Origin: Rubritepida sp.
Lineage (GTDB): Bacteria > Pseudomonadota > Alphaproteobacteria > Acetobacterales > Acetobacteraceae
Reading direction: 5' to 3'
Assembly (NCBI GenBank): GCA_028291455.1
Contig: JAQGHY010000091.1
Span: forward strand, 1 to 36,054
DNA length: 36,054 nucleotides
Part shown: piece after piece, positions 7,493-28,464 of the stretch
Numbering within the stretch: position 1 is the first letter of the stretch
How the letters are laid out: each line of letters starts with the position of its first letter
Notes under the pieces: generated by a model
Seen by the model: the letters and a program-made list of their open reading frames with translations, nothing else
What the model was told of the DNA's origin: nothing
Databases searched by the model: none
Made by a program: the position numbers and the translations under genes

Positions 7493-8563
7493 TCAGGAGA
7501 ATTCGCGGTACCTGAAGCGGGCTTCGCCGGCCTCGGCGACGGCGGCGGCCAGCATCGCGTGGTGCGGCGAGAGGGCGCAGGCCGGGTCGGTGGCGGCGGC
7601 ATCGCCGGTCAGCGCGAAGGCCTGGCAGCGGCATCCGCCCCAGTCGCGCTCGGCATGCGCACAACCTTGGCAGGGTGCGGGCATCCAGGCCATGCCGCGG
7701 AAAGCGTTGAAGGCGTCGCTGCCGGTCCAGGCCGCTTCCAGCGACGTGTCGCGGATGTTCGGGAAGACCATGCCGGTGACGGATTTCGCGGCGTGGCAGG
7801 GCAGCACCTCGCCCATCGGCGAGACCGCGAGGAACCGCCGGCCCCACCCGCCCATGCAGGCCTTGGGCCGCGCGGCGTAGTAATCCGGGACCACGTAGTC
7901 GATGACGAGGCGGCCACGATTTGCCAATCTTGCCGCGTCCACGATGCCAGTGGCCGCGTCGAGCTGCGCGCGGGTCGGCAGCAGCGCGTCGCGGTTGGCC
8001 AGCGCCCAGCCGTAATACTGCACATGCGCGACCTCGAGCCGCTGCGCACCCCATTCCAGCGCGATGGCGATGAGCTCGGACAAGTTATGCAGGTTCTGCC
8101 GGTGGACCACGGCGTTGAGGGTGAGCGGCAGGCCGGATTGCCGGACCAACGCCGCCGCGGCGCGCTTCTTGGCCTGCGCGCCCTTCATCCCACCGATCCG
8201 CTCAGCGCCCGCCTCGTCCGCGTCCTGGACGGAGAGCTGCACATGGTCGAGGCCCGCCTCGACGAGCCGCGCCATCAGCCCCGCATCGAGCAGCACGCCG
8301 GCGGTGATGAGGTTGCTGTAGAGCCCGGCGGCGCGCGCGGCGGCGACGATCTCCACGATGTCGCGCCGCACGGTGGGCTCGCCGCCGGAGAGGTGGAGCT
8401 GCAGGCAGCCCAGCGCCGCAGCTTCCCGGAAAACCCGTGCCCATTCGGCGGTGGTGAGCTCGCTGCTGGCGCGCGCCAGTTCCATCGGATTGGAGCAATA
8501 GGGGCAGCGCAGCGGGCAGCGATGGGTGAGCTCCGCCAGGAGGGCCAGGGGTGCGTCAGCCAT
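7493..8563 (-). CDS. pqqE: PQQ biosynthesis radical SAM enzyme PqqE
   Basis: PqqE makes the first carbon-carbon bond of PQQ, linking the Glu and Tyr side chains of PqqA bound to PqqD. The 356-residue protein has the radical-SAM cluster motif CPLRCPYC near residue 16, the SAM-binding LSGGEP motif, and the PqqE-specific EVAHVQYYGWALANR. The C-terminal SPASM cysteines for auxiliary clusters appear in KACMGGWG, VLPCHAAK, PCQGCAHAERDWGGCRC and DPACALSPHH. The ATG at 8563 overlaps pqqD by eight bases. A GTG at 8575 is possible but gives a longer N-terminus than usual. It is the last pqq gene of the operon, before the sugar dehydrogenase. Confidence 0.96.
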   Translation of the reverse strand: MADAPLALLAELTHRCPLRCPYCSNPMELARASSELTTAEWARVFREAAALGCLQLHLSGGEPTVRRDIVEIVAAARAAGLYSNLITAGVLLDAGLMARLVEAGLDHVQLSVQDADEAGAERIGGMKGAQAKKRAAAALVRQSGLPLTLNAVVHRQNLHNLSELIAIALEWGAQRLEVAHVQYYGWALANRDALLPTRAQLDAATGIVDAARLANRGRLVIDYVVPDYYAARPKACMGGWGRRFLAVSPMGEVLPCHAAKSVTGMVFPNIRDTSLEAAWTGSDAFNAFRGMAWMPAPCQGCAHAERDWGGCRCQAFALTGDAAATDPACALSPHHAMLAAAVAEAGEARFRYREFS

Positions 8564-8816
8564 GGGCCAGCGCACCCTTGGCGATCAGATCCTCCAGCAT
8601 GGCGCCGACATCCGCGCCGATTTCCTCGACCGGCGCGTCGAACTTGGCCGCAAGCAGCGCGACGATCGCCGCCTCGTCCCTGATGCCGTCCACGAGGCGC
8701 AGCACTTCGAGGGCGATGTCGTCAGGGATGAACATGCGCTCGGGGGCCATGACGATCCAACGCGCCCGGGCCTTGTCCTCATGCAGGCGCACGCCGGGGG
8801 CGAAGCGGGGGATCAC
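8556..8816 (-). CDS. pqqD: PQQ peptide chaperone PqqD
   Basis: PqqD is a small RiPP-recognition protein that binds the PqqA leader and presents it to PqqE. The 86-residue product begins VIPRFAPGVRLHEDKARARWIVMAPERMF and ends in a helical acidic tail, matching family length and order (RFxPGVRLxxD, then W.xxxPE.). The GTG start at 8816 is chosen because it overlaps the pqqC stop as GTGA and gives the normal size. A longer reading through from 8924 would add residues unlike PqqD. Confidence 0.93.
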   Translation of the reverse strand: MIPRFAPGVRLHEDKARARWIVMAPERMFIPDDIALEVLRLVDGIRDEAAIVALLAAKFDAPVEEIGADVGAMLEDLIAKGALAHG

Positions 8817-9535
8817 GGCCGGTAGGCGCCCGGGGGCGGCAAGGCGGGCGCAACATAGGCGAAGTGCAGCGCATCGAGCTGCGCCCAGAGCAGGTCGCAT
8901 TTGAAGCGCAGCGCGGCCAGGCACAGCTCCTGCTTCTCGCGCGTATCGGCGTAGCGCTTCACGTAGCCGAGCGCGAAATCCACATCCTGCGGCGCCTGGG
9001 TGAGGCGGGGCGTGAAGTAGGCGAGCGTCTCCTCGCTCACGAAGTCGTAGCCGCGCAGCATGCCGGCCACGCGCTCCTGGATGATGTTGGGCGAGAACAT
9101 CTCCGTCAGCGAGGAGGCGATAGCCTCCAGCACGCTCCGCTCGCGCACGAAATGCACATAGGCATCGACGGCGTAGCGCGTGCCGGGCAGCAGGCCCTCC
9201 AGCGAAATCACGTAATCGCGGTCGATCCCGAGGCTGTCGGTCAGCACCAGCCAGCGCTCGACGCCGCCGGGCTTGGAGCCGTCGCCGTCATGATCCTCGA
9301 TGCGGCGGCGCCATTCGCGGCGCAGGTCGGTCGTGGGCAGGCGGGCGAGGAGCGAGGCGTCCTTCGCGGGGATGCTGGCCTGGTAGTAGTAGCGGTTCAG
9401 CGCCCAGGCCTGGACCTGCGGCTTGGTCAGCTTTCCCGTGTGCAGCAGCCGATGAAAGGGATGCAGGATATGGTACCGCTCGGCGCCGATGGCGCGGAGC
9501 TCGGCTTCCAGGGCCTCGGGGCTCGCCAGCGTCAC
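8813..9535 (-). CDS. pqqC: Pyrroloquinoline-quinone synthase PqqC
   Basis: PqqC is the cofactor-free oxidase that closes the ring and performs the final oxidations to PQQ. The 240-residue all-helical protein shows RYHILHPFHRLLHTGKL, the conserved NRYYYQASIPAKDASLLAR segment that lines the active site, RRIEDHDGD, and LTEMFSPNIIQERV near the centre. Length matches the family. The gene begins with GTG and overlaps pqqB (GTGA), so the operon is translationally coupled. Confidence 0.96.
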   Translation of the reverse strand: MTLASPEALEAELRAIGAERYHILHPFHRLLHTGKLTKPQVQAWALNRYYYQASIPAKDASLLARLPTTDLRREWRRRIEDHDGDGSKPGGVERWLVLTDSLGIDRDYVISLEGLLPGTRYAVDAYVHFVRERSVLEAIASSLTEMFSPNIIQERVAGMLRGYDFVSEETLAYFTPRLTQAPQDVDFALGYVKRYADTREKQELCLAALRFKCDLLWAQLDALHFAYVAPALPPPGAYRP

Positions 9536-15714: not shown

Positions 15715-16236
15715 TCAGGCATTCGCCTCGATCAACGCGACGAGCCCTTCGAGAATTTGCGTCGGCGAGGGCGGGCAGCCGGGGATGACGAGGTCCACCG
15801 GCAGCGCCGCATCCACCCCGCCGAGCACGGCGTAGCTGCCCTTGAAGATCCCACCGTCGACGGCGCAATCGCCGAGCGCGACCACCCAGACCGGCTCGGG
15901 CGTCGCGGCGCGGGCGCGCAGCAGCGCCTCGGCCATATTGCGCGACAAGGGACCGGTGACGAGCAGGATATCGGCATGGCGCGGGCTGGCGACGAAGCGC
16001 AGGCCGAAACGCTCCAGATCATGCGCGACGTTCTGCAGCGCGTTGATCTCCAGCTCGCAGCCGTTGCAGCTGCCGGAATCCATATGGCGGATGGCGAGCG
16101 AGCGGCCAAGCCGCGCCTGGGATGCCTCCTCCAGACGGGCGCGCAGCTCGGCGATGATCTCCGGCGCCACGGGCGGCGGCGCCGGATCGGTCAGCGGGCG
16201 CGATACGAGGTTGCGGACCAGCCTGGGCCAGAGCAT
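15715..16236 (-). CDS. hyfI: Hyf/complex-I small FeS subunit (HyfI/NuoB-like)
   Basis: This 173-residue subunit is homologous to HyfI/HycG and NuoB and carries the terminal [4Fe-4S] cluster that passes electrons to or from the large-subunit site. All four ligands are visible: C57 and C60 in SCNGCELEIN, C124 in GDCAVDGG, and C154 in GCPPSP. It has the hydrogenase-4 spacing (CxxC) rather than the adjacent Cys pair of NuoB. It is the last gene of the six-gene operon. GGAGGG lies seven bases before the ATG, and a 12-codon ORF joins it to the large-subunit gene. The electron partner cannot be a NiFe site here, because the large subunit lacks its ligands. Confidence 0.9.
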   Translation of the reverse strand: MLWPRLVRNLVSRPLTDPAPPPVAPEIIAELRARLEEASQARLGRSLAIRHMDSGSCNGCELEINALQNVAHDLERFGLRFVASPRHADILLVTGPLSRNMAEALLRARAATPEPVWVVALGDCAVDGGIFKGSYAVLGGVDAALPVDLVIPGCPPSPTQILEGLVALIEANA

Positions 16237-16274
16237 CAGCCGCCCTCCGCATTCGGGGTCACGAATCGCGGCAT
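16236..16274 (-). other. 12-codon ORF bridging the large and small subunit genes
   Basis: MPRFVTPNAEGG is encoded exactly between the hyfG-like stop and the hyfI-like start, with a TGATG junction at both ends. In E. coli the ferredoxin gene hyfH occupies this position; none is present here. It may relay ribosomes between cistrons, be a remnant, or be chance, because the small-subunit gene has its own strong ribosome site. Confidence 0.3.
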
Positions 16275-17755
16275 CAGAGGTCCACCCCGCTATAGCTGCC
16301 GTTGATGCTTTTGTTGATGAGCGGGAAGTCGGCCACGATATTGCCGATCACCGCGGCTTCCAGCAGCGGCCAATGCAGCCAGGACGGATCGCGCAGGAAG
16401 CAGGCCTCGATCAACCCGCCGTCGTCCAGGCGCATCCAGGCCAGGCATTCGCCGCGAAAGCCCTCCACCAGCGCGATGCCTTCGCCGCCGCGCTGGGTCA
16501 TGGGCGTGGTGAGCGGGCCTTCCGGCAGCCTCGCCAACAGCGCGGCCAGGAAGGCGATGGATTGCAGCGCTTCGGCATATCGCTGGCGCCAGCGCGCATC
16601 GACATCCGCACCCGATTGCAGGATCAGCGCTTCGGGCGCCAGCTCGCCGGTGAGCAGCCGCGCATCGAAGGCGCGTCCGGCGGCGCGGCCGACCACGCCG
16701 CCGGGCGCGAAAGCCGCCACGAGGTCGGCGGACATCGTGCCCGTGCCCAGCACGCGGTCCTGCAGGCTCGCATGGCTCTCGTAGTAGCCGAGCAGCACCG
16801 GAAGCTCCGCCTCGATGGCGGCAAGCGCGACCCGCAGCGCCGCGACGCCCTCCGGCGTGAGGTCCTGCGCCACGCCGCCCGGCTGGAGGCCGTCCATCAT
16901 CAACCGATGCCCGAAGGCGGCGAATTGCGCACGCAGCAGCTCCTCGCGGACCAGCCCGGCGCGCGCATGGATCACCGCGAAGGCGGCATCGTTAGCGATG
17001 AAGCCGAGGTCGTTGAGGTGATTGTGCAGCCGCTCCAGCTCCAGCATCGCGGCGCGGATCGCCGCCGCCCGCGGCGGGATCTCGACGCCCTGCGCGGCCT
17101 CGGCGGCGCGGGCGAAGGCGAGCCCGTGCGCGACCGTGCTGTCGCCCGAAAGCCGTGCCGCGAAGCGCGCGGCAGCGCGGGGCGACTTGCCCTGCATCAG
17201 CGTCAGCAGGCCCTTATGCGTATAGCCCAGCCGCAGCTCCAGCCGGACGATGATCTCGCCTTGGACGTGAAAGCGGAAATGCCCCGGCTCGATGACCCCT
17301 GCATGGATGGGGCCGACGGGAATGACGTGCACGCCCTCGCCCGCCACCGGCAAGAATTCCATCGGCGTCGGGTCGGGTGCATGGCGCGTGGGATGGGCGG
17401 AAAGCGGACCGAGGACCGGCCACCGGCCATGGTCCAGCCAGCCCCGGGGATCGCCGCCCTCGGCCTCGATGGCGTAGAGATCCCGCAGCATGCGCTCGAA
17501 CAGCGCGGCACCCGGGCGTCCCTGCGACAGCGCGGGGATATGCCCCTCGGGTGCGGCGACGGAGGCGAGCAGCACCTGCATCCGCGCTTCGTCCAGAAAT
17601 GCGGCATGCGCCATGCCCGCCTCGCCCCACAGCCCGAGCAAAGCGAGGTCCGACGGCGACGCCAGCTGCGCCCAGCGCGAGGCGTCCAGCAGGTAGCGCG
17701 GCCAGGGCACGCATCCGACAGGGCGTCCGGATTCGATGATCGCGCGCGCGCTCAT
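16274..17755 (-). CDS. hyfG: Hyf large subunit-like protein lacking NiFe ligands
   Basis: A 493-residue NuoC-NuoD-like fusion as in HyfG/HycE: an N-terminal NuoC-like part (about 1-135), then the large-subunit core beginning FLPVAGEGVHVIPVGPIHAGVIEPGHFRF (about 134-162) and LGYTHKGL. In [NiFe] hydrogenases of group 4 the next motif is R-x-C-G-x-C; here it reads RLSGDSTVAH (201-210), with Ser at 203 and 206. The C-terminal DPCxxC is absent; the chain ends DFPLINKSINGSYSGVDL. Only three cysteines exist in the whole protein (15, and in GECLAW and EACFL), none in ligand positions. It therefore should not make or use H2. This matches the cofactor-less energy-converting-hydrogenase-related (Ehr) type. 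Start and stop overlap both neighbours. Confidence 0.9.
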   Translation of the reverse strand: MSARAIIESGRPVGCVPWPRYLLDASRWAQLASPSDLALLGLWGEAGMAHAAFLDEARMQVLLASVAAPEGHIPALSQGRPGAALFERMLRDLYAIEAEGGDPRGWLDHGRWPVLGPLSAHPTRHAPDPTPMEFLPVAGEGVHVIPVGPIHAGVIEPGHFRFHVQGEIIVRLELRLGYTHKGLLTLMQGKSPRAAARFAARLSGDSTVAHGLAFARAAEAAQGVEIPPRAAAIRAAMLELERLHNHLNDLGFIANDAAFAVIHARAGLVREELLRAQFAAFGHRLMMDGLQPGGVAQDLTPEGVAALRVALAAIEAELPVLLGYYESHASLQDRVLGTGTMSADLVAAFAPGGVVGRAAGRAFDARLLTGELAPEALILQSGADVDARWRQRYAEALQSIAFLAALLARLPEGPLTTPMTQRGGEGIALVEGFRGECLAWMRLDDGGLIEACFLRDPSWLHWPLLEAAVIGNIVADFPLINKSINGSYSGVDL

Positions 17756-19173
17756 GCCAGCAACCTCGCCGCTTCGAGCAGCATGCGCGCCAGCGGTTCG
17801 GGCATCGCCAGCGCCAGGATCGCCGCCAGCAGCAGGTTGACCCAGAGCGGCAGCAGCGTGGCGAGGCCGGAGCGGGCCGGGATGGGCTCGGGCGTCGGCA
17901 GGCCGAAGCAGAGGCGCTGCATCGCGTGCAGCAGCGCCGTGCCGGCCACGAGCAGGCCGAGGATCAGCAGCGGCAGCAGCCACGGCCGCTCGCGCCCCGT
18001 CTCCATGGCCAGCAGCACTTCCGAGGCGAAGAGGCTGAACGGCGGCAAGCCCGCCAGCGCCGCCATCGCCAGGGCCAGCCCCCATCCTAGCGCCGGATGC
18101 GTTGTGGTGAGGCCGGCGATGGATTCGATCCCCTGCCCGCCCTTCATCCGCGCCGCGCGTCCGATCGCGAAAAAGGCCGCCGACTTCACCAGCGAATGGC
18201 CCCAGAGATGCAGCAGCCCCGCCATATGCCCGGGCACGCCGCCGATTCCGAAGGCGACGGCGACGATGCCCATATGCTCGATGCTGCTCCAGCCAAACAG
18301 GCGCTTGGCATCGCGCCGGCGCCACAGCGAGAAGGCGGCCAGCAGCAGCGTGATGAAGCCCAGCACGATCAGGAAACTGCCGGGCGAGATCACCGCGGGA
18401 TTGGTGCCCACGATCGCCTTGCCGCGGAGAATGCCGAGCATGGCCCCGTTCAGCAGCAGGCCTGAAAGCACAGCGGCGATCGGCGTCGGCCCCTCGGCAT
18501 GGGCATCCGGAAGCCAAGAATGCAGCGGCACCAGCCCGGCCTTGGTGCCGAAGCCCACCAGCAGGAAGATGAAGGCGAGGTTGAGCAGGCCGGGATCGGC
18601 GCGGGCCGCGACGGCGCGCAGGGCGAGGAAGGAAAGCTGCTCGCCATGGCCCAGCAGCGGCTGCGCCGCCAGAGCCAGCACGATGATGCCGAACAAGGCT
18701 AGCGCGATGCCGACGCCGCAGAGGATGAAGAACTTCCACGCGGCCTCGATGGCCGCCGGCGTCCGGTGCAGCGCCACCATCAGCACGCAGGCCAGCGTGC
18801 CGGCCTCAATGGCCACCCACATCACCCCGAGATTGTCGGAGAGCAGCGCCAGGAAATGCGCGGCCATGAAGCCCTGGAATCCCGCGTGGTAAAAGCGCGC
18901 GCGGCGCCGGTCGAACATCTCGTAGGCGACGTCCTGCTCGGAGAAGATCGCGGTGCCGAAGCCCACGATCGCCGCGATCAGCACCAGCGGCATGTTCAGC
19001 GCATCCGCGCGCAGCAGCCCGTCGCCGCCGGGTTCGGTCAGCACCAGCAGGATCGCCAGCAGCAGCGTGGCGCCGGAGGCGACAATGTTCAGCCGGCTTG
19101 CGCGATCCGGCAGCAGCGCCAGCAGCACGGCCGCGAGGAGCGGCAGCAGGACGAGGGCGGCGGCCAGGCTCAT
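17752..19173 (-). CDS. hyfF: Hyf antiporter-like membrane subunit F
   Basis: A 473-residue, roughly 13-14-span subunit of the Mrp/NuoL-M-N antiporter family, closest in context to HyfF. The proton-channel signature is clear: VGFGTKAGLVPLHSWLPDAHAEGPTPIAAVLSGLLLN, with the conserved Lys and His, and LFGWSSIEHMGI later. It should couple redox change at the peripheral arm to ion movement across the inner membrane. It overlaps hyfE upstream (ATGA) and the large-subunit gene downstream. Length and motif spacing are normal, with no missing charged residue seen. Confidence 0.93.
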   Translation of the reverse strand: MSLAAALVLLPLLAAVLLALLPDRASRLNIVASGATLLLAILLVLTEPGGDGLLRADALNMPLVLIAAIVGFGTAIFSEQDVAYEMFDRRRARFYHAGFQGFMAAHFLALLSDNLGVMWVAIEAGTLACVLMVALHRTPAAIEAAWKFFILCGVGIALALFGIIVLALAAQPLLGHGEQLSFLALRAVAARADPGLLNLAFIFLLVGFGTKAGLVPLHSWLPDAHAEGPTPIAAVLSGLLLNGAMLGILRGKAIVGTNPAVISPGSFLIVLGFITLLLAAFSLWRRRDAKRLFGWSSIEHMGIVAVAFGIGGVPGHMAGLLHLWGHSLVKSAAFFAIGRAARMKGGQGIESIAGLTTTHPALGWGLALAMAALAGLPPFSLFASEVLLAMETGRERPWLLPLLILGLLVAGTALLHAMQRLCFGLPTPEPIPARSGLATLLPLWVNLLLAAILALAMPEPLARMLLEAARLLA

Positions 19174-19838
19174 CGCCCCTCACCCCGATGCGGGTCGAGC
19201 ATGTCGGTGTCGAGGCTGTCGAAGCGCTCATGCATGACGCGGGCGAAGAGGCCGGCGATGACGGCGGCGACCAGCACCAGCCCCGCGGTGGAGAGCTCGA
19301 TCACCAGCGGCATTCCCGCCACCCCGATGGCCGCGAGCACCAGCCCGTTCTCCATCGTCATCAGCCCCGCTATCTGGGCGAGGGCGCTGCGCCGCATCAG
19401 CATCATCAGCAGGCCCAGCAGGATGATGGAGAGGGCGACGGCCAGATCCTCGCGCGCCAGGGCCTTCGCCCCGGTCGTCACCGGCAGCACGACCAGGATG
19501 GCCAGCGCCACCAGCAGCGCGCCGCCGATCATGGAAAGGCCGATGTTGGAAGCGGGCTCGGTGTGGTGGCCCGGCGCCAGCTTGCGCATCATCCGCCGCA
19601 GGAAGATCGGGATCAGCACGCCCTTGGCGACCAGCGCGATCAGCCCCGTGACGTAGAGCTGCGGCGCGCCCTGGACGTAGCCCTGCCACACCGCGGCCAT
19701 CGCCAGCAGCGCGCCCTGCAGCGCCAGCGCGTTCACCAGCGAGGCGACGCGGCGCTGGTAGAGCAGCACGAAGGAGACGAGCAGCATCGCGCCGCCCAGC
19801 ACATGCGCGACGTCATAGGGGAGCTCGCCGATGCCCAT
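19170..19838 (-). CDS. hyfE: Hyf membrane subunit E
   Basis: A 222-residue membrane protein of the HyfE type, a small subunit related to NuoK with extra spans. It is almost wholly hydrophobic helices (HVLGGAMLLVSFVLLYQRR, ALQGALLAMAAVW, LYVTGLIALVAKGVLIPIFLRR) with the recognisable MTMENGLVLAAIGVAGMPLVIEL segment, where the Glu is the expected conserved acidic residue of the proton path. The ATG shares one base with the hyfC stop (TGATG). A longer upstream reading is non-hydrophobic and not supported. Confidence 0.9.
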   Translation of the reverse strand: MGIGELPYDVAHVLGGAMLLVSFVLLYQRRVASLVNALALQGALLAMAAVWQGYVQGAPQLYVTGLIALVAKGVLIPIFLRRMMRKLAPGHHTEPASNIGLSMIGGALLVALAILVVLPVTTGAKALAREDLAVALSIILLGLLMMLMRRSALAQIAGLMTMENGLVLAAIGVAGMPLVIELSTAGLVLVAAVIAGLFARVMHERFDSLDTDMLDPHRGEGR

Positions 19839-20797
19839 CAGGCCAACCCCGTCGATACGAAGATGAGCGCCGCAGCCAGCAGCGCCAGCAGCAGGGCGCC
19901 GCCGAGGAAATCCGGCACGCGGAAGACGCGCATCTTGGCGATGGCGCTCTCGAACATCGCCAGCATCAGCGCCAGCAGTCCCATCTTCACGAGCCAGAAC
20001 AGCAGGCCGAGGCTCCAGAGGAGCGGCCCGCTTCCCGCCGACGCGGTGCCGAAGGGTAGGAAGATCGCGGCCAGCAGCGCGAACCACAGCGTCAGCTTCA
20101 AGGCCGCCTGCATCTCCCAGACCGCCAGATGGCGTCCGGACGCCTCCAGCAGCATGGCCTCATGCACCATGGTGAGCTCGAGATGGGTCGCGGGATTGTC
20201 GACGGGCACGCGGGCATTCTCCGCCAGCGCCACCGCGACCAAGGCCAGCGCGGCGAAGAGCAGCGAGACGCGCAGGCCCAGCGCGCCCTCGCGGAAGACG
20301 GCGCCGATGGTGTCCAGGTTGGAGCTGCCCGCCAGCACCGCGAAGACCATCACGCAGACCAGCAAGGCCGGCTCGGCGAAGACGGCGAAGGTCATCTCGC
20401 GCGCCGCACCCATGCCGCCGAAGGGCGTGCCGGCATCGTGGCCGTTCAGCGCCAACGCGACGCGGGCCAGGGCCAGCAGCCCCGCGATCAGCAGCAGGTC
20501 CGCGATACCAGCGAGGAGCATGCCCTGGGCGAAGCTGGGGATCAGCGCCGCCGCGAGCAGCGTGGCGCCGAAGGCTAGGTAGGGCGCGGCGCGGGAGACG
20601 ATGCTGGCGCCGTCGGCCAGGATCGGGCGCTTGCGCAGCAGCTTCAGGATGTCGCGCCAGGGCTGGAGCGGATGCGCCCCGCGCCGCCCCATCAGCCGCG
20701 CCTTCAGCCAGCGCACCACGCCCGTCAGCAGCGGTGCCCCCGCCAGGATGAGCGCCAGGTGCAGAAGCTGGGTGATGAGGCCGCCGAAGACCACCAT
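19838..20797 (-). CDS. hyfC: Hyf membrane subunit C (NuoH-like)
   Basis: A 319-residue membrane subunit of the HyfC/HycD/NuoH family that anchors the peripheral arm and connects it to the antiporter subunits. Visible family features are GRRGAHPLQPWRDILKLLRKRPI near the start (the conserved cytoplasmic loop after the first helix), ARVPVDNPATHLELTMVHEAMLLEASGRHLAVWE (the NuoH-like acidic loop), and MFESAIAKMRVFRVPDFLGG near the end. About eight spans are predicted. Its start overlaps hyfB (TGATG) and its stop overlaps hyfE, showing strict coupling. Confidence 0.93.
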   Translation of the reverse strand: MVVFGGLITQLLHLALILAGAPLLTGVVRWLKARLMGRRGAHPLQPWRDILKLLRKRPILADGASIVSRAAPYLAFGATLLAAALIPSFAQGMLLAGIADLLLIAGLLALARVALALNGHDAGTPFGGMGAAREMTFAVFAEPALLVCVMVFAVLAGSSNLDTIGAVFREGALGLRVSLLFAALALVAVALAENARVPVDNPATHLELTMVHEAMLLEASGRHLAVWEMQAALKLTLWFALLAAIFLPFGTASAGSGPLLWSLGLLFWLVKMGLLALMLAMFESAIAKMRVFRVPDFLGGALLLALLAAALIFVSTGLA

Positions 20798-22794
20798 CAG
20801 CCGCGCTCCAGCCAGGCGACCAGCGCCAGCAGGAAGACCAGCGTGCCGAAGGCGAGCGAGAGGTTGATCCGCAAGGTCCGCCCGCGCAGCGCCTCCGCCC
20901 GGCGGGAGAGCCGGCGGCGGAGGCGGGCCAGCGGATAGAGCATCTGCGTAAAGCCGCGATCCTCGGTGTCCACCCGCAGCGTCGCAGTGGCGGGATCGCC
21001 GGGCATGGCGGGGTAATGCCGCTCACGGATGGCGAGCGCGACGCGGCCGAGGCTGCGGCGGATGGGCTGGCCGAGCCCCATGGCACTCACCTGGCTGAGC
21101 GGATCGCCGAAGGGCAGGTGCGGCGGCGGCGGCATGAAACCGCCATCCCAGGCCGGCTCCCGCGTCGGCGCCAGCGAGGAGCGGCGGCGCACGGCGAGCC
21201 AGGTCAGCCCCACCGCCAGCGCCAATAGCAGCGCCACGGCCCAGGGCGCGTAGCGCGCACCCGCATCGCCGAGGACTAGATCGAAGCCGGCGACCGGCGC
21301 CAGGGCGTTGGCGCCCAGCAACTGCCGGATGGCGCCGCCCGTCAGGGACAGCATCGGCGCGGCCAGCACCGCCAGCAGCAGGCTCAGCGCCGCGGGCAGT
21401 AGCAGCGCCACCCGCATCATCCCCACCGCATCCGGTGCCCCGGCGGCGCGGGGTGTGCGCGGGCGTCCCAGGAAAACGAGGCCGAGCAGCCGCACCATCG
21501 CCGCCGCCGCCAGCCCGACAGCCATGCCCACTACCGCCAGCGTGCCTGCCGCGATGAGCTGGATGGACATTTCCGCCACGCGCCAGCCCTGGATCAGCGA
21601 TTGCAGCAGCAGCCACTCGCTCGCGAAGCCGGAGAGCGGCGGCAGGGCCGCGGCCGAGAAGGCGCCCAGCATGGCGCAGCCCGCGACCCAGGGCATGCGG
21701 TGGATCAGCCCGCCCAGCCGGTCCGGATCGCGGCTTCCGGCGAGGCTCGCCACCGCGCCGGCGCAGAGGAACAGCAGCGTCTTGAAGCCGGCATGGTTCA
21801 GCGCGTGCAGCAGCACGGCGGCCAGCGCGAGGCTCGCCAGCGGCCGCAGGTCCGAGCCGCGGAAGACCAGCGCCAGCCCCAGCCCGACCACGATCAGCCC
21901 CATATTCTCCAGGGTGGAGCAGGCCAGGATCGCCTTGATATCGCGCTCCAGATTGGCCCGCAGCGCGCCGATCAGCGCCGTCGCCGCCCCCAGCCCGATC
22001 AGCGGCAGCCCCCACCACGCCGGCTGCGCCGGGCCGGGCAGGTCCAGCAGCAGGCGGATCATCACATAGAGCGCCACCTTGACCATCGCGCCCGACATCA
22101 GCGCGGAAACCGGCGTCGCCGCGGCCGGATGGGCGAGCGGCAGCCAGATGTGGAAGGGCGCCAGCCCGGCCTTGGACCCCGCGCCGAGCAGCACCAGGAT
22201 CAGCACCATCGCCGCCCGCCAGCCCTCCGGCGGGGCCGCGCGGATTGCGGCGAAGCCGAGCCCGGCGGGTGCCAGCAGCGCGAAACCCGCGATCAGGCAG
22301 AGGCCCGAGAAGGCGGCGAAGGCCAGATAGAGCCGCGCCGTGCGCCGGCCCACGCCGGTCGGGTGGCGGGCGGCGATCAGCGCCCAGGAAGCCAGCGACA
22401 TCAGCTCGAAGCCGAGCAGCAGGGTGAAGCCGTCGGCGGCCACCAGCACCGCAGCCATGCCGGCCAGGAAGAGCGGGAATGCCGCGCCCTCGGCCGGGGG
22501 CGGCGCGGGCGAGGCGGCGGCGAAGAGCAATGCGGGCACGGCCACGACGGCGAGAATCAGCAGGAACCAGGCGGAAAGCGGGTCGAGCGCGACCAGCGAA
22601 GGTGCCCAGGGCGGGCCGACGGGCAGCGCCGTCGCGGCCATGCCATCCCCCGTCAGCGCGATTGCTGCGGCCAGGCCGAAACCCGCCGCCGCGGCGGCGC
22701 AGCCAAGAAACACGACGCGCGGCGCCCGGCCGGTGACGCCGAGTGCGGACAGCCCCAGAAGCGCCAGGAGGCAGGCCCCCAGCAGCGTCAGCAC
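20797..22794 (-). CDS. hyfB: Hyf antiporter-like membrane subunit B
   Basis: First gene of the six-gene unit. The 665-residue product is a NuoL/HyfB-like antiporter subunit with about 16 spans. It contains LLGFELMSLASWALIA, the channel signature GAGSKAGLAPFHIWLPLAHPAAATPVSALMSGAMVKVALY with its Lys and His, and ACSTLENMGLIVVGLG. A long soluble C-terminal loop (WDGGFMPPPPHLPFGDPLSQ) typical of HyfB precedes the last span. It starts with GTG at 22794, preceded by a G-rich stretch. The divergent neighbour is the TRAP transporter, sharing a 162-base promoter region. HyfA and HyfD equivalents are absent. Confidence 0.92.
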   Translation of the reverse strand: MLTLLGACLLALLGLSALGVTGRAPRVVFLGCAAAAAGFGLAAAIALTGDGMAATALPVGPPWAPSLVALDPLSAWFLLILAVVAVPALLFAAASPAPPPAEGAAFPLFLAGMAAVLVAADGFTLLLGFELMSLASWALIAARHPTGVGRRTARLYLAFAAFSGLCLIAGFALLAPAGLGFAAIRAAPPEGWRAAMVLILVLLGAGSKAGLAPFHIWLPLAHPAAATPVSALMSGAMVKVALYVMIRLLLDLPGPAQPAWWGLPLIGLGAATALIGALRANLERDIKAILACSTLENMGLIVVGLGLALVFRGSDLRPLASLALAAVLLHALNHAGFKTLLFLCAGAVASLAGSRDPDRLGGLIHRMPWVAGCAMLGAFSAAALPPLSGFASEWLLLQSLIQGWRVAEMSIQLIAAGTLAVVGMAVGLAAAAMVRLLGLVFLGRPRTPRAAGAPDAVGMMRVALLLPAALSLLLAVLAAPMLSLTGGAIRQLLGANALAPVAGFDLVLGDAGARYAPWAVALLLALAVGLTWLAVRRRSSLAPTREPAWDGGFMPPPPHLPFGDPLSQVSAMGLGQPIRRSLGRVALAIRERHYPAMPGDPATATLRVDTEDRGFTQMLYPLARLRRRLSRRAEALRGRTLRINLSLAFGTLVFLLALVAWLERG

Positions 22795-22956
22795 GCCGCC
22801 ACCCCTGCCCTGTCCGCTCCGATTCGCGCATGCATGGCCGGGAGTTTAGGCACGCCGTGCCGCCACGGCGAGGGCCACGGCGTATGGACAATCGGGAAGT
22901 TATCTTTAGGGATCGCGCGCGGCCCAGAAAACCCGGACAGGCGCTGGAGGATGACG
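22795..22956. promoter_or_regulatory. Divergent promoter region with a 13-base palindrome
   Basis: This gap separates the Hyf-like operon from the TRAP genes and must carry both promoters. It contains a perfect palindrome GGCACG-C-CGTGCC (22849-22861) at its centre, followed by two copies of GCCACGGCG about 14 bases apart. The A/T-rich patch GAAGTTATCTTTAGG (near 22901) may belong to the TRAP promoter. GGAGG at 22946-22950 directly abuts one ATG, so the next ATG, six bases on, is chosen for dctQ. Confidence 0.45.
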
Positions 22957-23505
22957 ATGGATCTGCTTCTGGCCTTCAGCCGGGGCGTGGACTGGATCAA
23001 CGAGAAGTTCGGCCGGCTGGCGGACTGGTGCATCCTGCTCGCCTGCACCATCAGTGCCGGCAACGCGATGAGCCGCTACGGCTTCAACTTCTCCTCCAAT
23101 GCCTGGCTCGAGGTGCAGTGGTACTTCTTCGCGGCCGTGGTGATGCTGGGCTCCAGCTACACGCTGTTCCGCAACGAGCATGTCCGCGTCGACCTCCTCT
23201 ACGGCTGGGTGAGCGACCGCACGCGGCTCTATATCGACATCTTCGGCTTCATCGTCTTCCTGCTGCCGGCCATGGCGCTGCTGGCCTGGATGACCTGGCC
23301 CTTCTTCCTCGACAGCTTCCTACGCGACGAATTCTCCGCGAGCCCCGGCGGGTTGATGCGCTGGCCGGTCAAGCTGCTGATGCCGCTAGGATTCTTCATG
23401 GTTCTGCTGCAGGGCCTCTCCGAGCTGGTCAAACGCCTCGCTCTGCTGCGTGGCCCGGTCGCGGGCATCGCCGTCGTCACCGAGTACCAGAGGCCAGAGC
23501 AATAA
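22957..23505 (+). CDS. dctQ: TRAP transporter small permease DctQ
   Basis: A 182-residue four-span membrane protein, the small subunit of a sodium-driven TRAP transporter. Typical features are WCILLACTISAGNAMSRYGFN, SNAWLEVQWYFFAAVVMLGSSYTLFRNEHVRVDLLY (the EHVRVD motif is diagnostic), and a closing GLSELVKRLALL. The resemblance is to the DctQ of mannitol/chloroaromatic-type systems. The ATG at 22957 gives six bases from GGAGG; the ATG at 22951 would have none. Two bases separate its stop from dctM. Confidence 0.93.
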   Translation: MDLLLAFSRGVDWINEKFGRLADWCILLACTISAGNAMSRYGFNFSSNAWLEVQWYFFAAVVMLGSSYTLFRNEHVRVDLLYGWVSDRTRLYIDIFGFIVFLLPAMALLAWMTWPFFLDSFLRDEFSASPGGLMRWPVKLLMPLGFFMVLLQGLSELVKRLALLRGPVAGIAVVTEYQRPEQ

Positions 23506-23507
23506 CC

Positions 23508-24917
23508 ATGAGCCTCGATGTCATGCCGCCGCTGATGTTCGGCGGGCTGGTGGTGTTCCTGCTGCTGGGCTTCCCGGTCGCCTTCAGCCTCTCCGCGGTG
23601 GGGCTGTTCTTCGGCTTCCTCTCGATCGAGCTGGGCTTCTTCACCACCGCCTATCTGGGCAACCTGCCGCTGCGGGTCTTCGGCATCCTCTCCAACGACC
23701 TGCTGCTCTCCATCCCGTTCTTCACGCTGATGGGCGCGATCCTGGAGCGGTGCGGCCTCGCCGAGGACCTGCTGGAGGGCACCGGGCAGCTTTTCGGCAA
23801 GATCCCGGGCGGGCTGGCCTATGCCGTCATCATCGTGGGCGCCGTGCTCGGGGCCATCACCGGCACGGTCGCGGCCTCGGTCATCGCCATGGGCATGATC
23901 TCGCTGCCGATCATGATCAAATACGGCTACGACACGCGGATCGCGACCGGCGTGGTCGCCGCCTCGGGCACCATCACCCAGCTCATCCCCCCCAGCCTGG
24001 TGCTGATCGTGCTGGGCGACCAGCTCGGCAAGTCGGTCGGCGACATGTACGCCGGCGCGATCGGCGTCTCGATGCTGCAGATTCTGCTGTTCATCGGCTT
24101 CATCGCCGTGGTCAGCATCGTGGCGCCGCACAAGGTGCCGCCATTGCCGCCCGAGGCGCTGGTGCCGCGGGGATGGCCGCTTTACCTGCGGGTGCTGAAG
24201 GGCATGGTGCCCTCCATCGCGCTGATCTTCCTGGTGCTCGGCACCATCTTCATGGGCCTCGCCACGCCGACCGAGGCGGGTGCGATGGGCGCGGTCGGCG
24301 CCGTGGTGCTAGCCGTGCTGAACGGCCGCTTCACCTGGGCGCTGCTGCGCGAGGCGATGGGCAACACCATGCGCCTGACCGCCATGGTCATCTTCATCCT
24401 GATCGGCGCCACGGTGTTCAGCCTGGTATTCCAGGGCGTGGACGGCTCGCGCTGGGTCGAGAACATGCTGAGCCACCTGCCGGGCGGGCAGACCGGCTTC
24501 CTGTTCTTCGTCAACGTCTTCGTCTTCTTCCTGGCCTTCTTCCTCGATTTCTTCGAGATCGCCTTCATCGTCGTCCCGCTTCTGGTCCCGGTCGCGACCA
24601 AGCTGGACATCGACCTGGTGTGGTTCGGCGTGCTGCTCTGCATCAACCTGCAAACCAGCTTCATGCACCCGCCCTTCGGCTTCGCGCTCTTCTACCTGCG
24701 CAGCATCGCGCCCAAGTCGGTGCTATCGAAGGACATCTACCTGGGCGCCATTCCCTGGCTCGGGCTACAGCTGATCCTGGTGGCGATCGTCATCTTCTGG
24801 CCGGCCAGCGTGACCTATTTCGTGCATGCGGGCTCCGGCGTGGACCCCGCGAGCGTGACGATCGAGGTGCCGGCGGGGCCCGCACCGGACGACGATGCGA
24901 TGCCGATTTTCCGGTAG
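23508..24917 (+). CDS. dctM: TRAP transporter large permease DctM
   Basis: A 469-residue, about 12-span subunit that forms the transport pathway for organic acids driven by a sodium gradient. Recognisable are LLSIPFFTLMGAILERCGLAEDLLEG, the SGTITQLIPPSLVLIVLGDQ segment of the first transport hairpin, GLATPTEAGAMGAVGA, and the ending HPPFGFALFYLRSIAP. Full length, no breaks. No DctP-type solute receptor gene accompanies it in the window, so the receptor must be encoded elsewhere. Its stop and that of the convergent aldo/keto reductase are only six bases apart, over a short TAGCC/GGCTA hairpin. Confidence 0.95.
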   Translation: MSLDVMPPLMFGGLVVFLLLGFPVAFSLSAVGLFFGFLSIELGFFTTAYLGNLPLRVFGILSNDLLLSIPFFTLMGAILERCGLAEDLLEGTGQLFGKIPGGLAYAVIIVGAVLGAITGTVAASVIAMGMISLPIMIKYGYDTRIATGVVAASGTITQLIPPSLVLIVLGDQLGKSVGDMYAGAIGVSMLQILLFIGFIAVVSIVAPHKVPPLPPEALVPRGWPLYLRVLKGMVPSIALIFLVLGTIFMGLATPTEAGAMGAVGAVVLAVLNGRFTWALLREAMGNTMRLTAMVIFILIGATVFSLVFQGVDGSRWVENMLSHLPGGQTGFLFFVNVFVFFLAFFLDFFEIAFIVVPLLVPVATKLDIDLVWFGVLLCINLQTSFMHPPFGFALFYLRSIAPKSVLSKDIYLGAIPWLGLQLILVAIVIFWPASVTYFVHAGSGVDPASVTIEVPAGPAPDDDAMPIFR

Positions 24918-25789: not shown

Positions 25790-26401
25790 ATGATGAAGCT
25801 TGCCACTGCCCTCTGCCTGCTCCTGCTTCCTCTGGCTGCCTCGGCACAGCCGGCACCCGAGGAGATCGGCAGCTGGCGCCTTGCCTGCGCGACCGACCGC
25901 ATGACGGACCGCTCCGCCTGCATCCTTCGCCATCGCGACTGGGTGGAGCGGCCGAGCGTCGGCGCCGGGCTGGCCCTGGAAGTCCAGGATCGTGCCGGGA
26001 AGCTGGTGCCGGTCGTCACCGCGCGGGACCTGTCGCTCGACAGCGCCTCGCGTGCGCTGATGGCGGTGACGGGCACGGCGCAGCTGCGCTTCGACCGCAA
26101 TGCGATGATGGAGCTTCCCTGCAGCCTCGAAGGGCGCAGCCTGGTCTGCGCGCCCCGGTCGGCCGATGCCGCGCGCGCCGCGACGGAACTCCTGGCCGCC
26201 GAGCGCGTTCTGGTCCGCATGGCAGGTCTCGGCAGCAACACCAATGCGGCGACCGAACCGACGGAGCTGCGCCTCGCCGGCACGACCCCCGCGCTGGAAC
26301 GCCTGCGCCGCACGCAGCCGCCGGGGGCGCCTACCCCGCCGGCCGAACCCGGCCTCGACCTGCGCGAGCTGCTCGGCCGTGCGCAGCGGCTCCTCCAGTG
26401 A
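25790..26401 (+). CDS. Secreted IalB-like protein ahead of the sigma factor
   Basis: A 203-residue exported protein. A signal peptide (MMKLATALCLLLLPLAASA) precedes a domain with GSWRLACATD, RSACILRHRDW, LEVQDRAGKLVPVV, LPCSLEGRSLVC and repeated Cys that recalls the invasion-associated-locus-B family of alphaproteobacterial periplasmic proteins; this match is by pattern and is weak. The C-terminal part is Pro-rich, then helical. Its stop overlaps the GTG of the ECF sigma factor (GTGA), so the two are coupled, suggesting that the protein is a target or sensor of the same stress pathway. No good ribosome site was seen before its ATG. Confidence 0.72.
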   Translation: MMKLATALCLLLLPLAASAQPAPEEIGSWRLACATDRMTDRSACILRHRDWVERPSVGAGLALEVQDRAGKLVPVVTARDLSLDSASRALMAVTGTAQLRFDRNAMMELPCSLEGRSLVCAPRSADAARAATELLAAERVLVRMAGLGSNTNAATEPTELRLAGTTPALERLRRTQPPGAPTPPAEPGLDLRELLGRAQRLLQ

Positions 26402-26928
26402 GCGATGCCGCGGCGCTGCTTCTCCGTATCGCGGGCGAAGACCGGACGGCCCTGCAGGCCCTCTACAAGCTGCAATCGGTCCGCCTCTTCGGCGTGGCCA
26501 TGGCGATCCTGCGGGACCGCGATGCCGCCGCCGACGCCGTGCATGACGGCTTCGTCAACGTCGCCCGCCGCGCGGCGCAATTCGATGCCGAACGCGGCAC
26601 CGCCGAGGGCTGGCTCGGCTCCATCATCCGCCACGCCGCGCTCGACATCGCGCGCCGCCGCGGCCGGGAAATCCCGACGGACGACGCGACGCTCGGCGAC
26701 ACGCCGGTCGAGGCCGCGCAGCTCGACAGCATCACGGCGAGCGAGGAGGGTGCGCGGCTGCGCGCCTGCCTGGCCGATCTGCCCGAGAAGAACCGGCAGG
26801 GCATCGTGCTCGCCTTCGTCCACGGGCTTTCGCATCCGCAGATCGCCGCCCGCCTGGAGCTGCCGCTCGGTACGGTAAAGGCCTGGATCCGGCGCGGATT
26901 GCTCACCCTCAGGGAGTGCCTGGCATGA
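26398..26928 (+). CDS. ECF-type RNA polymerase sigma factor
   Basis: A 176-residue group-4 sigma factor. Region 2 (about 10-80) shows LYKLQSVRLFGVAMAILRDRDAAADAVHDGFVNVAR and a WLGSIIRHAALDIARRR ending, and region 4 (about 118-172) shows LPEKNRQGIVLAFVHGLSHPQIAARLELPLGTVKAWIRRGLLTLRE with a clear helix-turn-helix. It starts with GTG at the stop of the upstream secreted-protein gene and overlaps the anti-sigma gene by ATGA. This is the order expected for a sigma factor held by its anti-sigma and released on envelope or oxidative stress. It probably directs its own operon and the DUF4394 gene, though no promoter was confirmed. Confidence 0.95.
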   Translation: MSDAAALLLRIAGEDRTALQALYKLQSVRLFGVAMAILRDRDAAADAVHDGFVNVARRAAQFDAERGTAEGWLGSIIRHAALDIARRRGREIPTDDATLGDTPVEAAQLDSITASEEGARLRACLADLPEKNRQGIVLAFVHGLSHPQIAARLELPLGTVKAWIRRGLLTLRECLA

Positions 26929-27587
26929 CCCCTGGGGAACGCGACGCACTGGCCGCCGAATATGTGCTGGGCACGCTCGACGCGCGCGCCACGGCCGAGT
27001 TGCGCGGAGCGATGGAGACCGACGCCGCGCTTGCCGATGCAGTGGCCGGCTGGGAGCAGCGGCTGGCCCCGTTGCAGCTGCTCGCCACGCCCGAGGCGCC
27101 GCCGCCGGATCTCTGGGCACGCCTCGAACGGACGCTCGGCGGGGGTGCGCGGCGCAAGGCCTGGCGCTTCCCCTGGCCGGCCTTCGGCCTCGGCGCCGGC
27201 GCGCTCGCTGCCGGGCTTGCCGCCTTCATCGTCTTCCGCCCGCCGCCGGCCGCACCGCTGATGACGGTGCTGCTGACCAGCCGCGATCAGCCCGCCTATC
27301 TCGTCGAAGCCGAGCGCGGCACGCTGCGCCTCGCCGCCCTCAACCCGCGCGGGATCGAGGCCGGGCGCGTGATGCAGCTCTGGGCCTTGCCGCAGGGCGC
27401 GACGGCGCCGACCTCGCTCGGCCTCATTCCCGAAAGCGGGCGCTTCAGCGTGACGCCGCAGAACATCCGGCCCGAGCCAGGCATGCTGATCGAGATCAGC
27501 CTGGAGCCGCCCGGCGGCTCGACCACCGGGCGCCCGACCGGGCCGATCCTGTTCATCGGCAGGCTAAGCGCGGCTGGAAACAGCTGA
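26925..27587 (+). CDS. RskA-type membrane anti-sigma factor
   Basis: A 220-residue single-pass protein that should hold the adjacent sigma factor at the membrane. The cytoplasmic N-terminus (TPGERDALAAEYVLGTLDARATAEL) has the anti-sigma-K pattern and no HxxxCxxC zinc site. A membrane span lies at about 84-105 (WPAFGLGAGALAAGLAAFIVF). The periplasmic C-terminus (VMQLWALPQGATAPTSLGLI ... PGMLIEISLEPPGGS) is the RskA domain, whose usual ending GPILFIG is present. The ATG lies in the sigma-factor stop (ATGA); an upstream in-frame ATG at 26916 is less likely. Confidence 0.94.
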   Translation: MTPGERDALAAEYVLGTLDARATAELRGAMETDAALADAVAGWEQRLAPLQLLATPEAPPPDLWARLERTLGGGARRKAWRFPWPAFGLGAGALAAGLAAFIVFRPPPAAPLMTVLLTSRDQPAYLVEAERGTLRLAALNPRGIEAGRVMQLWALPQGATAPTSLGLIPESGRFSVTPQNIRPEPGMLIEISLEPPGGSTTGRPTGPILFIGRLSAAGNS

Positions 27588-27684
27588 GGTTTTTCTCGAC
27601 GGCGGCTGCATCCGGCCCGCGTCACGGCCCGTAACGTCGACAGCGAGGCGATGAACGTCCCGCGTGACACATGGAGCCGATACG

Positions 27685-28464
27685 ATGTCCAAGACCCTTC
27701 GCCTGGCGCTGCTCGGCAGCGTTGCTTTTCTTGCCGCCGCGCAGGCCCAGGCCGCCACGCTGGTCGGCCTCACCGCCGACAATCACCTCATTCGCATCGA
27801 CAGCGAAACCCGCCGCGCGATGCCCGCCATGCGCATCATGGGCGCCGACGGCATGGTGGTCGGCATCGACCAGCGCCCGCAGGACGGCAAGCTCTACGGC
27901 ATCACCGCCACCGGCCAGATCGTGACGATCGACCTGGCGAACGGCCGTGCGGTGCAGGTGAGCCGGCTGAACACGCCATTCCAGGCCGCCGGCCGCGCCG
28001 TGTTCGACTTCAATCCCGTTGCCAACCGCGTGCGCGTGATGGGCATGGACGGCCAGAACCTGCGCGTGAACGTCGAGAACGGCGAGGCCACCACCGACGG
28101 CCGGCTGAAGAACGCCGATGGCCCCATCGGCGCCGCGATGCCGCGCGTCGTTGCCGGCGCCTATACCAACAGCATGCAGGGCGCGACCGCGACCATGCTG
28201 CTGACGATCGACGCGGCGCAGAACAGCCTCAACGTGCAGAACCCGCCGAATGACGGCGTGCAGACGCCACGTGCGCGCCTCTCGATGCAGATGCCCGCGG
28301 GCGTGGCTTTCGACATCCTGAGCGAGGGCACGAACAATATGGGCTACGTGATGGCCGGCAATACGCTGCACACGCTGGACCTGGCGAGCGGTGCGCTGAC
28401 CGCGCGCGGAACCGTCACCCTGCCGCGCGGCGCCGAGATCATCGATATCGCCGCGATGCGGTGA
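27685..28464 (+). CDS. Secreted DUF4394 beta-propeller-like protein
   Basis: A 259-residue exported protein of the DUF4394 type, function unknown. It has a signal peptide (MSKTLRLALLGSVAFLAAAQAQA), then repeated segments with a beta-propeller look: LVGLTADNHLIRIDSETRRA, DQRPQDGKLYGITATGQIVTIDLANGRA, FNPVANRVRVMG and TLHTLDLASGALTARG. Genes of this family frequently follow an ECF sigma/anti-sigma pair, as here, suggesting it is a regulated envelope product. ATG at 27685 follows GGAG; an in-frame GTG at 27664 is possible. A 21-base perfect direct repeat spans the stop codon. Confidence 0.9.
   Translation: MSKTLRLALLGSVAFLAAAQAQAATLVGLTADNHLIRIDSETRRAMPAMRIMGADGMVVGIDQRPQDGKLYGITATGQIVTIDLANGRAVQVSRLNTPFQAAGRAVFDFNPVANRVRVMGMDGQNLRVNVENGEATTDGRLKNADGPIGAAMPRVVAGAYTNSMQGATATMLLTIDAAQNSLNVQNPPNDGVQTPRARLSMQMPAGVAFDILSEGTNNMGYVMAGNTLHTLDLASGALTARGTVTLPRGAEIIDIAAMR

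Follow-up and report, generated by a model that had tools for sequence, protein, structure and literature searches.

A hydrogenase-4-like operon of Rubritepida sp. is predicted to encode an energy-converting-hydrogenase-related complex without the Ni-Fe site

What can a hydrogenase-type membrane complex do once its Ni-Fe site has gone? The question is raised by a 36,054-nt stretch of DNA from Rubritepida sp. (Acetobacteraceae; contig JAQGHY010000091.1 of assembly GCA_028291455.1), which is called the window here. Its minus strand carries, between positions 22794 and 15715, six genes that follow one another as B, C, E, F, G and I, lettered after the subunits of hydrogenase 4 (Hyf) that they resemble (Table 1). 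A preliminary description, made from the sequence alone, had read them as a hydrogenase-4/complex I-like machine that keeps its ion pump and FeS cluster but has no hydrogen site, the pattern of energy-converting-hydrogenase-related (Ehr) complexes. The assignment to Ehr was supported here by published definitions and by gene composition, not by the sequences of named Ehr proteins. The operon of the window adds a new member to a kind of complex that is already known and widespread.

The large subunit G was compared with hydrogenases and complex I. Its best sequence match was HycE from the solved structure of Escherichia coli formate hydrogenlyase (7z0s_E, E 4.6e-44) and its second-best 6cfw_L (E 1.5e-25). 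In the HycE alignment, residues 201-206 of G read RLSGDS at the position of RVCGIC, and the C-terminal NGSYSG aligned with DPCYSC. The Cys-free terminus INGSYSGVDL stops three residues past the last ligand column, where HycE continues into a processed tail; G ends as NuoCD does, the tail being short and the penultimate residue an Asp. The only cysteines of G are 15, 437 and 452, and the ligand columns 203, 206, 487 and 490 are all non-Cys. The replaced motifs and the missing hydrogen site claimed earlier were therefore both seen in the alignment, and four Ni-Fe cysteines did not occur elsewhere in the protein. The residues of the quinone site were absent too: His38 and Tyr87 of Thermus Nqo4, the quinone-site pair of complex I, align with Ile155 and Gly204. 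With the ligand motifs and this pair both gone, the pocket of G corresponds neither to the site of a hydrogenase nor to a quinone site of the classical type. Glu156 of G aligns with MbhL Glu21, which is also found in HycE, and was kept in 58 of 61 G proteins.

An AlphaFold2 model of G (20 sequences) had a mean predicted local distance difference test score (pLDDT) of 84.4. Structure comparison by VIA-align and Foldseek listed the HycE and complex I families. The model aligned with HycE over 487 of 493 residues (Z 40.5, root-mean-square deviation (rmsd) 2.7) and with NuoCD of complex I (7p64_C) over 480 residues (Z 37.9, rmsd 2.6). The pocket loops 144-158, 176-180 and 490-493 had pLDDT values below 50, so the model gives the fold and not the cavity.

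The small subunit I matched HycG (7z0s_G, E 5.5e-35). Its cysteines 57, 60, 124 and 154 align with the cluster cysteines of HyfI, HycG and NuoB, in agreement with the earlier statement that all four FeS cysteines are kept. The statement that both antiporter subunits keep their Lys and His residues held for most sites. In B, E130, K208, H334 and E393 align with NuoL/HyfB sites, but the NuoL His254 site falls in an alignment gap. In F, E123, K211 and E385 are present, but the Lys site of transmembrane helix 8 is occupied by N242, as in HyfF. The alignment of C gave PVDNPATHLELTMVHEAMLLE where NuoH and HyfC have PFDxxEAEQEL. The ion pump and the FeS cluster thus appeared intact as sequence, not as activity.

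Coordinates, frames and Pfam or NCBIfam families agreed with the six subunit identities first proposed. Against the NCBIfam hydrogenase 4 models, B, E and F scored 520.6, 89.4 and 505.9 bits, each under the model cut-off (667, 136 and 533, respectively), and E gave no match in the Pfam search. The genes overlap by 1 nt (B/C and C/E) or 4 nt (E/F and F/G), and I begins 37 nt past G. Tight coupling, earlier claimed for all six genes, was therefore seen from B to G and is only likely for I. Two other PF00346 proteins are encoded in the same genome, an assembly of 356 contigs, one of them with NuoB- and NuoC-like neighbours.

As described before, the operon contained no hyfA, hyfD, hyfH, fdhF, hyc or hyp genes (family searches covered only some of the genes in the 36 kb), and it encodes no NuoI/HyfH-type extra clusters. 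HypD is required for the Ni-Fe ligands. It was the only Hyp protein searched, and the genome of the window (89.8% complete) gave no match. Of the 59 genomes with the large subunit, 39, this one among them, lacked HypD and 20 had it. The control hydrogenases of Azospirillum lipoferum and of a member of the Acetobacteraceae, Rhodovastum atsumiense (loci L205 and L206), keep RVCGIC, DPCYSC and the tail. Their neighbours are fdhF, a 4Fe-4S (HyfA-type) gene, hyfB, hyfD, an iron-sulfur (HyfH-type) gene, hycH and hycI.

Ehr complexes have reportedly been named since about 2005; Coppi 2005 is among the references of PMC6688271. They are defined, in the parts of the published sources drawn on here and below, as group 4-like complexes without Ni-Fe ligand motifs, with antiporter-like subunits and with no established role (PMC6349859, PMC10284858, PMC10432482). 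The window operon has this composition, namely a group 4/NuoD-type large subunit without CxxC ligands, a NuoB-like small subunit, and clustered antiporter-, NuoH- and HyfE-like subunits. The Ehr of Geobacter, Methylacidiphilum and Nitrospira share the large subunit without CxxC and the small, HyfE-like and antiporter-like subunits; the signature RxSGDS / NKSFNxSYSGxDL comes from our own alignments of relatives only, not of named Ehr. Hyf (HyfA-I, also called formate hydrogenlyase-2) and Hyc agree with it in the kinds and arrangement of subunits B, C, E, F, G and I, and HycE is the nearest solved structure, but the window operon lacks the four Ni-Fe cysteines, HyfA, HyfD, HyfH, FdhF, a HycI-type protease and the processing tail. 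Complex I (Nuo) shares the NuoD, NuoB, NuoH and antiporter-like folds and one N2-type cluster, but the NADH module, NuoI and the His38/Tyr87 pair are absent here. As for Mbx and Mbh of Pyrococcus, MbhL shares the glutamate aligned with Glu156, and 6cfw_L, the second-best match of G, is of this type; the window G differs in having no Ni-Fe ligands, and the operon has fewer antiporter-type genes than Mbh. In the open-licence literature, no paper was found on this form in Acetobacteraceae or rhizobia. The main text of two R. leguminosarum insertion-mutant papers (PMC11406972, PMC11103875) names no hydrogenase, formate hydrogen, hyf or NADH-quinone; in the available part of PMC8076601 'Ehr' occurs only in species names, and that of PMC12361115 has nothing on Ehr.

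Relatives of G were abundant. Matches were found in 62 of the 398 Pseudomonadota genomes searched (E<=1e-50) and in 217 of 299 Acetobacteraceae genomes (E<=1e-40), the window's own genome being included in both; not all of these were motif-checked, and the weakest same-family ones (E ~1e-41 to 1e-50) could represent different PF00346 proteins. Plasmid records gave 62 matches at E<=1e-40, 31 of them from Rhizobium. A scan of genome contigs gave at least 583 stretches with at least 577 relatives, of which 80 were kept; the two best named loci among the scan matches listed were 79% and 66% identical. Together with the window, 60 genome regions, nine plasmid loci (L194-L202) and L207, these made up 151 loci, a count which includes three known repeats (L169, L132 and L175). 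In 115 of the 151 loci the full set of six genes was present, collinear and on the same strand, so the operon is not a chance arrangement. One called subunit was absent in 22 loci and two or more in 13, some at contig ends; the gene order differed in one (Rhodococcus), and some uncalled I genes were recovered by tblastn. Of 147 loci, 135 had two antiporter-family genes, 11 had one and a single locus had three; a third such subunit (D) is therefore not part of the six-gene form.

Motifs were counted in 147 G and 140 I proteins, after removal of repeats, X-containing sequences and those below 80% of the window length. None of the G proteins had four cysteines in the ligand columns and two had one, while RxSGD was present in 132. 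The pocket motifs of the family are RxSGDS, GPxHAGxIEPGHFRF and FPLxNKSFNxSYSGxDL, and the set spans alpha-, beta- and gammaproteobacteria and plasmids. Four cysteines were kept in 139 of the 140 I proteins, indicating selection on the cluster; the exception, from Allomeiothermus, lies outside the window's clade. Among 61 G proteins, mean conservation was 0.85 in loops 145-162, 199-210 and 474-493, 0.62 in the rest of 130-493 and 0.48 in the N-terminal 129 residues. These loops, which we picked because they line the place once taken by the metal, are the best-conserved part of the catalytic domain of G, and their value was attained by none of 10000 permutations. This conservation suggests that the pocket has probably been reused for something new.

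In a tree of 75 sequences (relatives, Hyf/Hyc and NuoCD) rooted on NuoCD, the four Hyf/Hyc proteins grouped together (support 1.0), as did the 70 NiFe-less proteins (0.92); the G of the window belonged to a group of 48 among them (0.85). A relative was present in Rhizobium johnstonii 3841 (RL_RS31255 to RL_RS31230; G 47% identical). Some same-family copies (L054, L113, L052, L105 and L112) showed altered pocket motifs, such as RMQAEA and no NKSFNxSYSG; the source genomes of L052 and L105 hold two copies. A gene of about 124 aa was located between G and I in L035, L036, L039, L044, L119 and L120, the L039 copy being Glyoxalase_7 (Pfam).

We give an even chance to the reading that this Ehr-type complex is a redox-driven ion pump with one cluster, supporting ion and pH homeostasis. 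A HyfBCEF-like ion-translocating membrane arm would be joined to a cytoplasmic arm reduced to G and I, holding a single [4Fe-4S] cluster at the N2 (proximal) site. Electrons may reach the cluster of I from a soluble donor of low potential, such as a ferredoxin or flavodoxin, and would go on to a small acceptor in the remodelled G pocket, which would be the head group of a quinone or some other small molecule and not H+. This redox step would drive H+ or Na+ export via C, E, F and B, the whole serving as an accessory pump for ion and pH homeostasis. The conserved cluster cysteines, the conserved pocket and the mostly conserved antiporter residues fit such a pump best. In the literature, charge translocation by Ehr coupled to a cytoplasmic redox reaction is suspected only (PMC6349859). 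Methylacidiphilum is said to have a six-gene set, ehrABCDLS, for which a role in pH homeostasis was suggested (PMC6688271). In Geobacter, Ehr subunits were more abundant with formate than in hydrogen-containing conditions (PMC7894505).

More distant relatives bear on this reading. Fluoride riboswitches (RF01734) were located by large subunits without a usable Ni-Fe site in four of the 11 plasmid loci scanned, from B. cenocepacia (L204, 5173-5243), M. branderi (L203, 5157-5230), Caballeronia (L222, 5167-5237) and Alicyclobacillus (L224, 7393-7453), and in none of L196, L197, L198, L200, L201, L207 and L223. The plasmids with these riboswitch-linked loci come from Burkholderiales, Actinomycetota and Bacillota. 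The Alicyclobacillus RNA stops 145 nt short of the large-subunit gene (7599-9095), and tblastn with the window proteins found no other subunit there in the 17 kb fetched. The equivalents of RVCGIC were RVSGVD in L204 and L222, RVEGIA in L203 and RISGTA in L224, and the C-terminal ligand columns held one Cys, in M. branderi only (one of its four columns overall). With at least three of four ligand cysteines lost, the usual [NiFe] site cannot form in these proteins. CrcB, DUF190, enolase or pyrophosphatase genes were near the annotated L203, L204 and L224. A review calls riboswitch-linked genes of such kind formate hydrogen lyase and describes Na+/H+ antiporters as common in the fluoride-riboswitch setting (PMC11139923). 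Relatives of the L204 large subunit gave 94 matches in the 398 genomes (E<=1e-25), none listed above 35% identity, so the fluoride-linked branch is known from plasmid records alone.

Fluoride control of the window's own clade was looked for and not found. The window had no Rfam match at E<=1, hence no crcB RNA (RF01734) by the operon. RF01734 occurred in 14 of 59 genomes, scoring above the cut-off in 13; in 12 it was on a different contig from the operon, and in the other two it shared the contig at distances of 0.70 and 1.58 Mb.

The NuoB-like small subunits of M. branderi (L203, 10405-11199) and Allomeiothermus (L198, 11269-12141) have lost all four N2 cysteines, and both loci keep the other kinds of subunit. 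In B. cenocepacia (L204, 10115-10915) and Variovorax (L207, 13609-14358), the small subunit carries an N-terminal two-cluster ferredoxin domain, a hint that electrons may enter from a ferredoxin-type donor. The Allomeiothermus silvanus plasmid bears its cluster twice (L198 and L223). On a Methylovirgula plasmid (L196, 1-6243) an F-type ATPase operon is divergent from the Ehr operon. Its gene order resembles that of Na+-type N-ATPases.

Several observations weigh against a redox pump. They include the missing quinone pair, the low pLDDT of the pocket loops and the two relatives without N2 cysteines; furthermore, L043, from the same family, shows only G and I of the six genes within the 20 kb fetched, and neither a donor or acceptor gene nor a partner enzyme adjoining the operon was conserved across the 151 loci, where neighbours vary by lineage. 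The authors of the Geobacter study also considered that Ehr might work together with formate dehydrogenase to make H2 (PMC7894505). The loss of the N2 cysteines in two relatives indicates that the scaffold can exist without that cluster. A redox-silent exchanger therefore stays a serious rival, in which the membrane arm would be an antiporter for Na+/H+ or other ions, G and I a structural or regulatory plug, and the cluster a means of assembly or sensing. The fluoride-linked genes around the distant relatives and the lack of a conserved partner enzyme are consistent with it. However, the four cysteines kept in nearly all I proteins and the pocket loops conserved above the rest of the domain would be needless for a mere plug, and we consider this explanation unlikely. 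A quinone reductase, that is, a cut-down complex I passing electrons from ferredoxin to ubiquinone at a changed Q site, would be a special case of the redox pump, and the chances of the two overlap. The alignment of G with NuoCD and its NuoCD-like end argue for it, as does the proposal for Margulisbacteria that formate dehydrogenase with Ehr may reduce a carrier such as quinone (PMC6349859), whereas Ile155 and Gly204 in place of the quinone pair and the replaced EAEQEL motif of NuoH in C make it doubtful.

The overall fold and the hydrogenase-4-like scores would also suit an active [NiFe] hydrogenase with its ligands moved elsewhere. This candidate was rejected and is close to impossible: none of the 147 G proteins has four ligand cysteines, the three of the window's G are off the ligand columns, no processing tail exists, and HypD was absent in the own genome and in 38 of 58 others searched, while the true formate hydrogenlyase (FHL) of Rhodovastum keeps RVCGIC, DPCYSC, hycI and fdhF. 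Decay of a Hyf operon to a remnant could account for the lost ligands, for the altered pocket motifs in L054 and L113 and for G and I standing alone in L043. It is very improbable, because the frames are intact, relaxed selection on the cluster cysteines was not seen and the motif set is conserved across three proteobacterial classes and plasmids; with matches in 62 of 398 genomes, decay was rejected for the family.

The neighbourhood of the operon was also surveyed. Genes for the two membrane subunits of a tripartite ATP-independent periplasmic (TRAP) transporter are divergent from B at a distance of 156 nt. A promoter region shared with the operon, as first suggested, is thus supported by position only, since no sigma-70-like site was found in 22700-23000. 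DctM was present in 21 and DctQ in 20 of the 151 loci. The 21 DctM loci comprised 14 from the same family (13 of the 29 same-family regions fetched and the window), four from Roseomonas-type genera and three metagenome-assembled genomes. The organic-acid context proposed for the operon is therefore local, being confined to Acetobacteraceae and a few relatives. A TRAP binding protein was also present in seven loci, and in the window none lies beside DctQ and DctM. The one binding protein tested matched 2hzk (listed as SmoM; E 1.1e-133) and a ketoacid-binding protein, so 2-oxo acids are the likely cargo there. The protein of 2hzk is TakP.

A small XRE-type helix-turn-helix gene was located directly before B in 40 of the 151 loci (one member has Pfam HTH_3), and a regulator resembling XRE-cupin by eye was found in seven loci, all of them from classes of the phylum other than that of the window. 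Spermidine-synthase-like (c24/c30), YoaK-like (c29) and YjdM-like (c25) neighbours were recurrent but scattered in rhizobia, Burkholderiales, Rhodococcus and one Roseomonas (L075, L127, L090, L200, L201, L197, L154 and L118). In the window, a sigma-70-like factor, an RskA-like anti-sigma factor and a DUF4394 protein are encoded in a row at 26398-28464; L035 is one of a small number of other loci where their relatives lie close to the operon.

Table 1. Genes of the Ehr-type operon and the adjacent TRAP genes in the window
Feature	Position	Strand	Product	Family match
hyfB/EhrA-like antiporter subunit	20797..22794	-	665 aa, GTG start	PF00361 E 7.5e-42
hyfC/NuoH-like membrane subunit	19838..20797	-	319 aa	PF00146 E 5.9e-33
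hyfE-like membrane subunit	19170..19838	-	222 aa	NCBIfam hydrogenase 4 membrane subunit E-value 3e-25
hyfF-like antiporter subunit	17752..19173	-	473 aa	PF00361 E 3.8e-46
hyfG/EhrL-like large subunit (NuoC-like + NuoD-like), without Ni-Fe ligands	16274..17755	-	493 aa	PF00346 E 9.9e-20, PF00374 E 9.1e-9
hyfI/EhrS/NuoB-like small subunit, four cluster cysteines	15715..16236	-	173 aa	PF01058 E 4.1e-32
TRAP small membrane subunit DctQ, context only	22951..23505	+ (divergent)		PF04290 E 1.2e-19
TRAP large membrane subunit DctM, context only	23508..24917	+ (divergent)		PF06808 E 1.2e-90

The role of Ehr complexes is still called unknown in recent accounts (PMC10284858, PMC10432482). The NiFe-less six-gene form is common, by named records in soil and plant-associated bacteria, and its G pocket is under strong selection. 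The relative in Rhizobium johnstonii 3841, an easily grown laboratory strain, can be deleted, so its role is open to study. As a speculation that we hold with little confidence, the family may be a hydrogenase-type pump that loses its redox centres stepwise, from FHL with Ni-Fe and several clusters, to the window's clade with one cluster and a new pocket, to some relatives with no N2 cysteines that nevertheless retain the membrane arm. The pocket would have been taken over by a new ligand other than a metal, which would gate or drive the movement of ions, with a role in ion and pH stress, and in fluoride stress in one branch. If true, at least part of the 'formate hydrogenlyase' under fluoride riboswitches would be such complexes and not hydrogen enzymes. 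The graded loss of redox centres among the relatives would also inform the question of how machines of the complex I type link chemistry to pumping.

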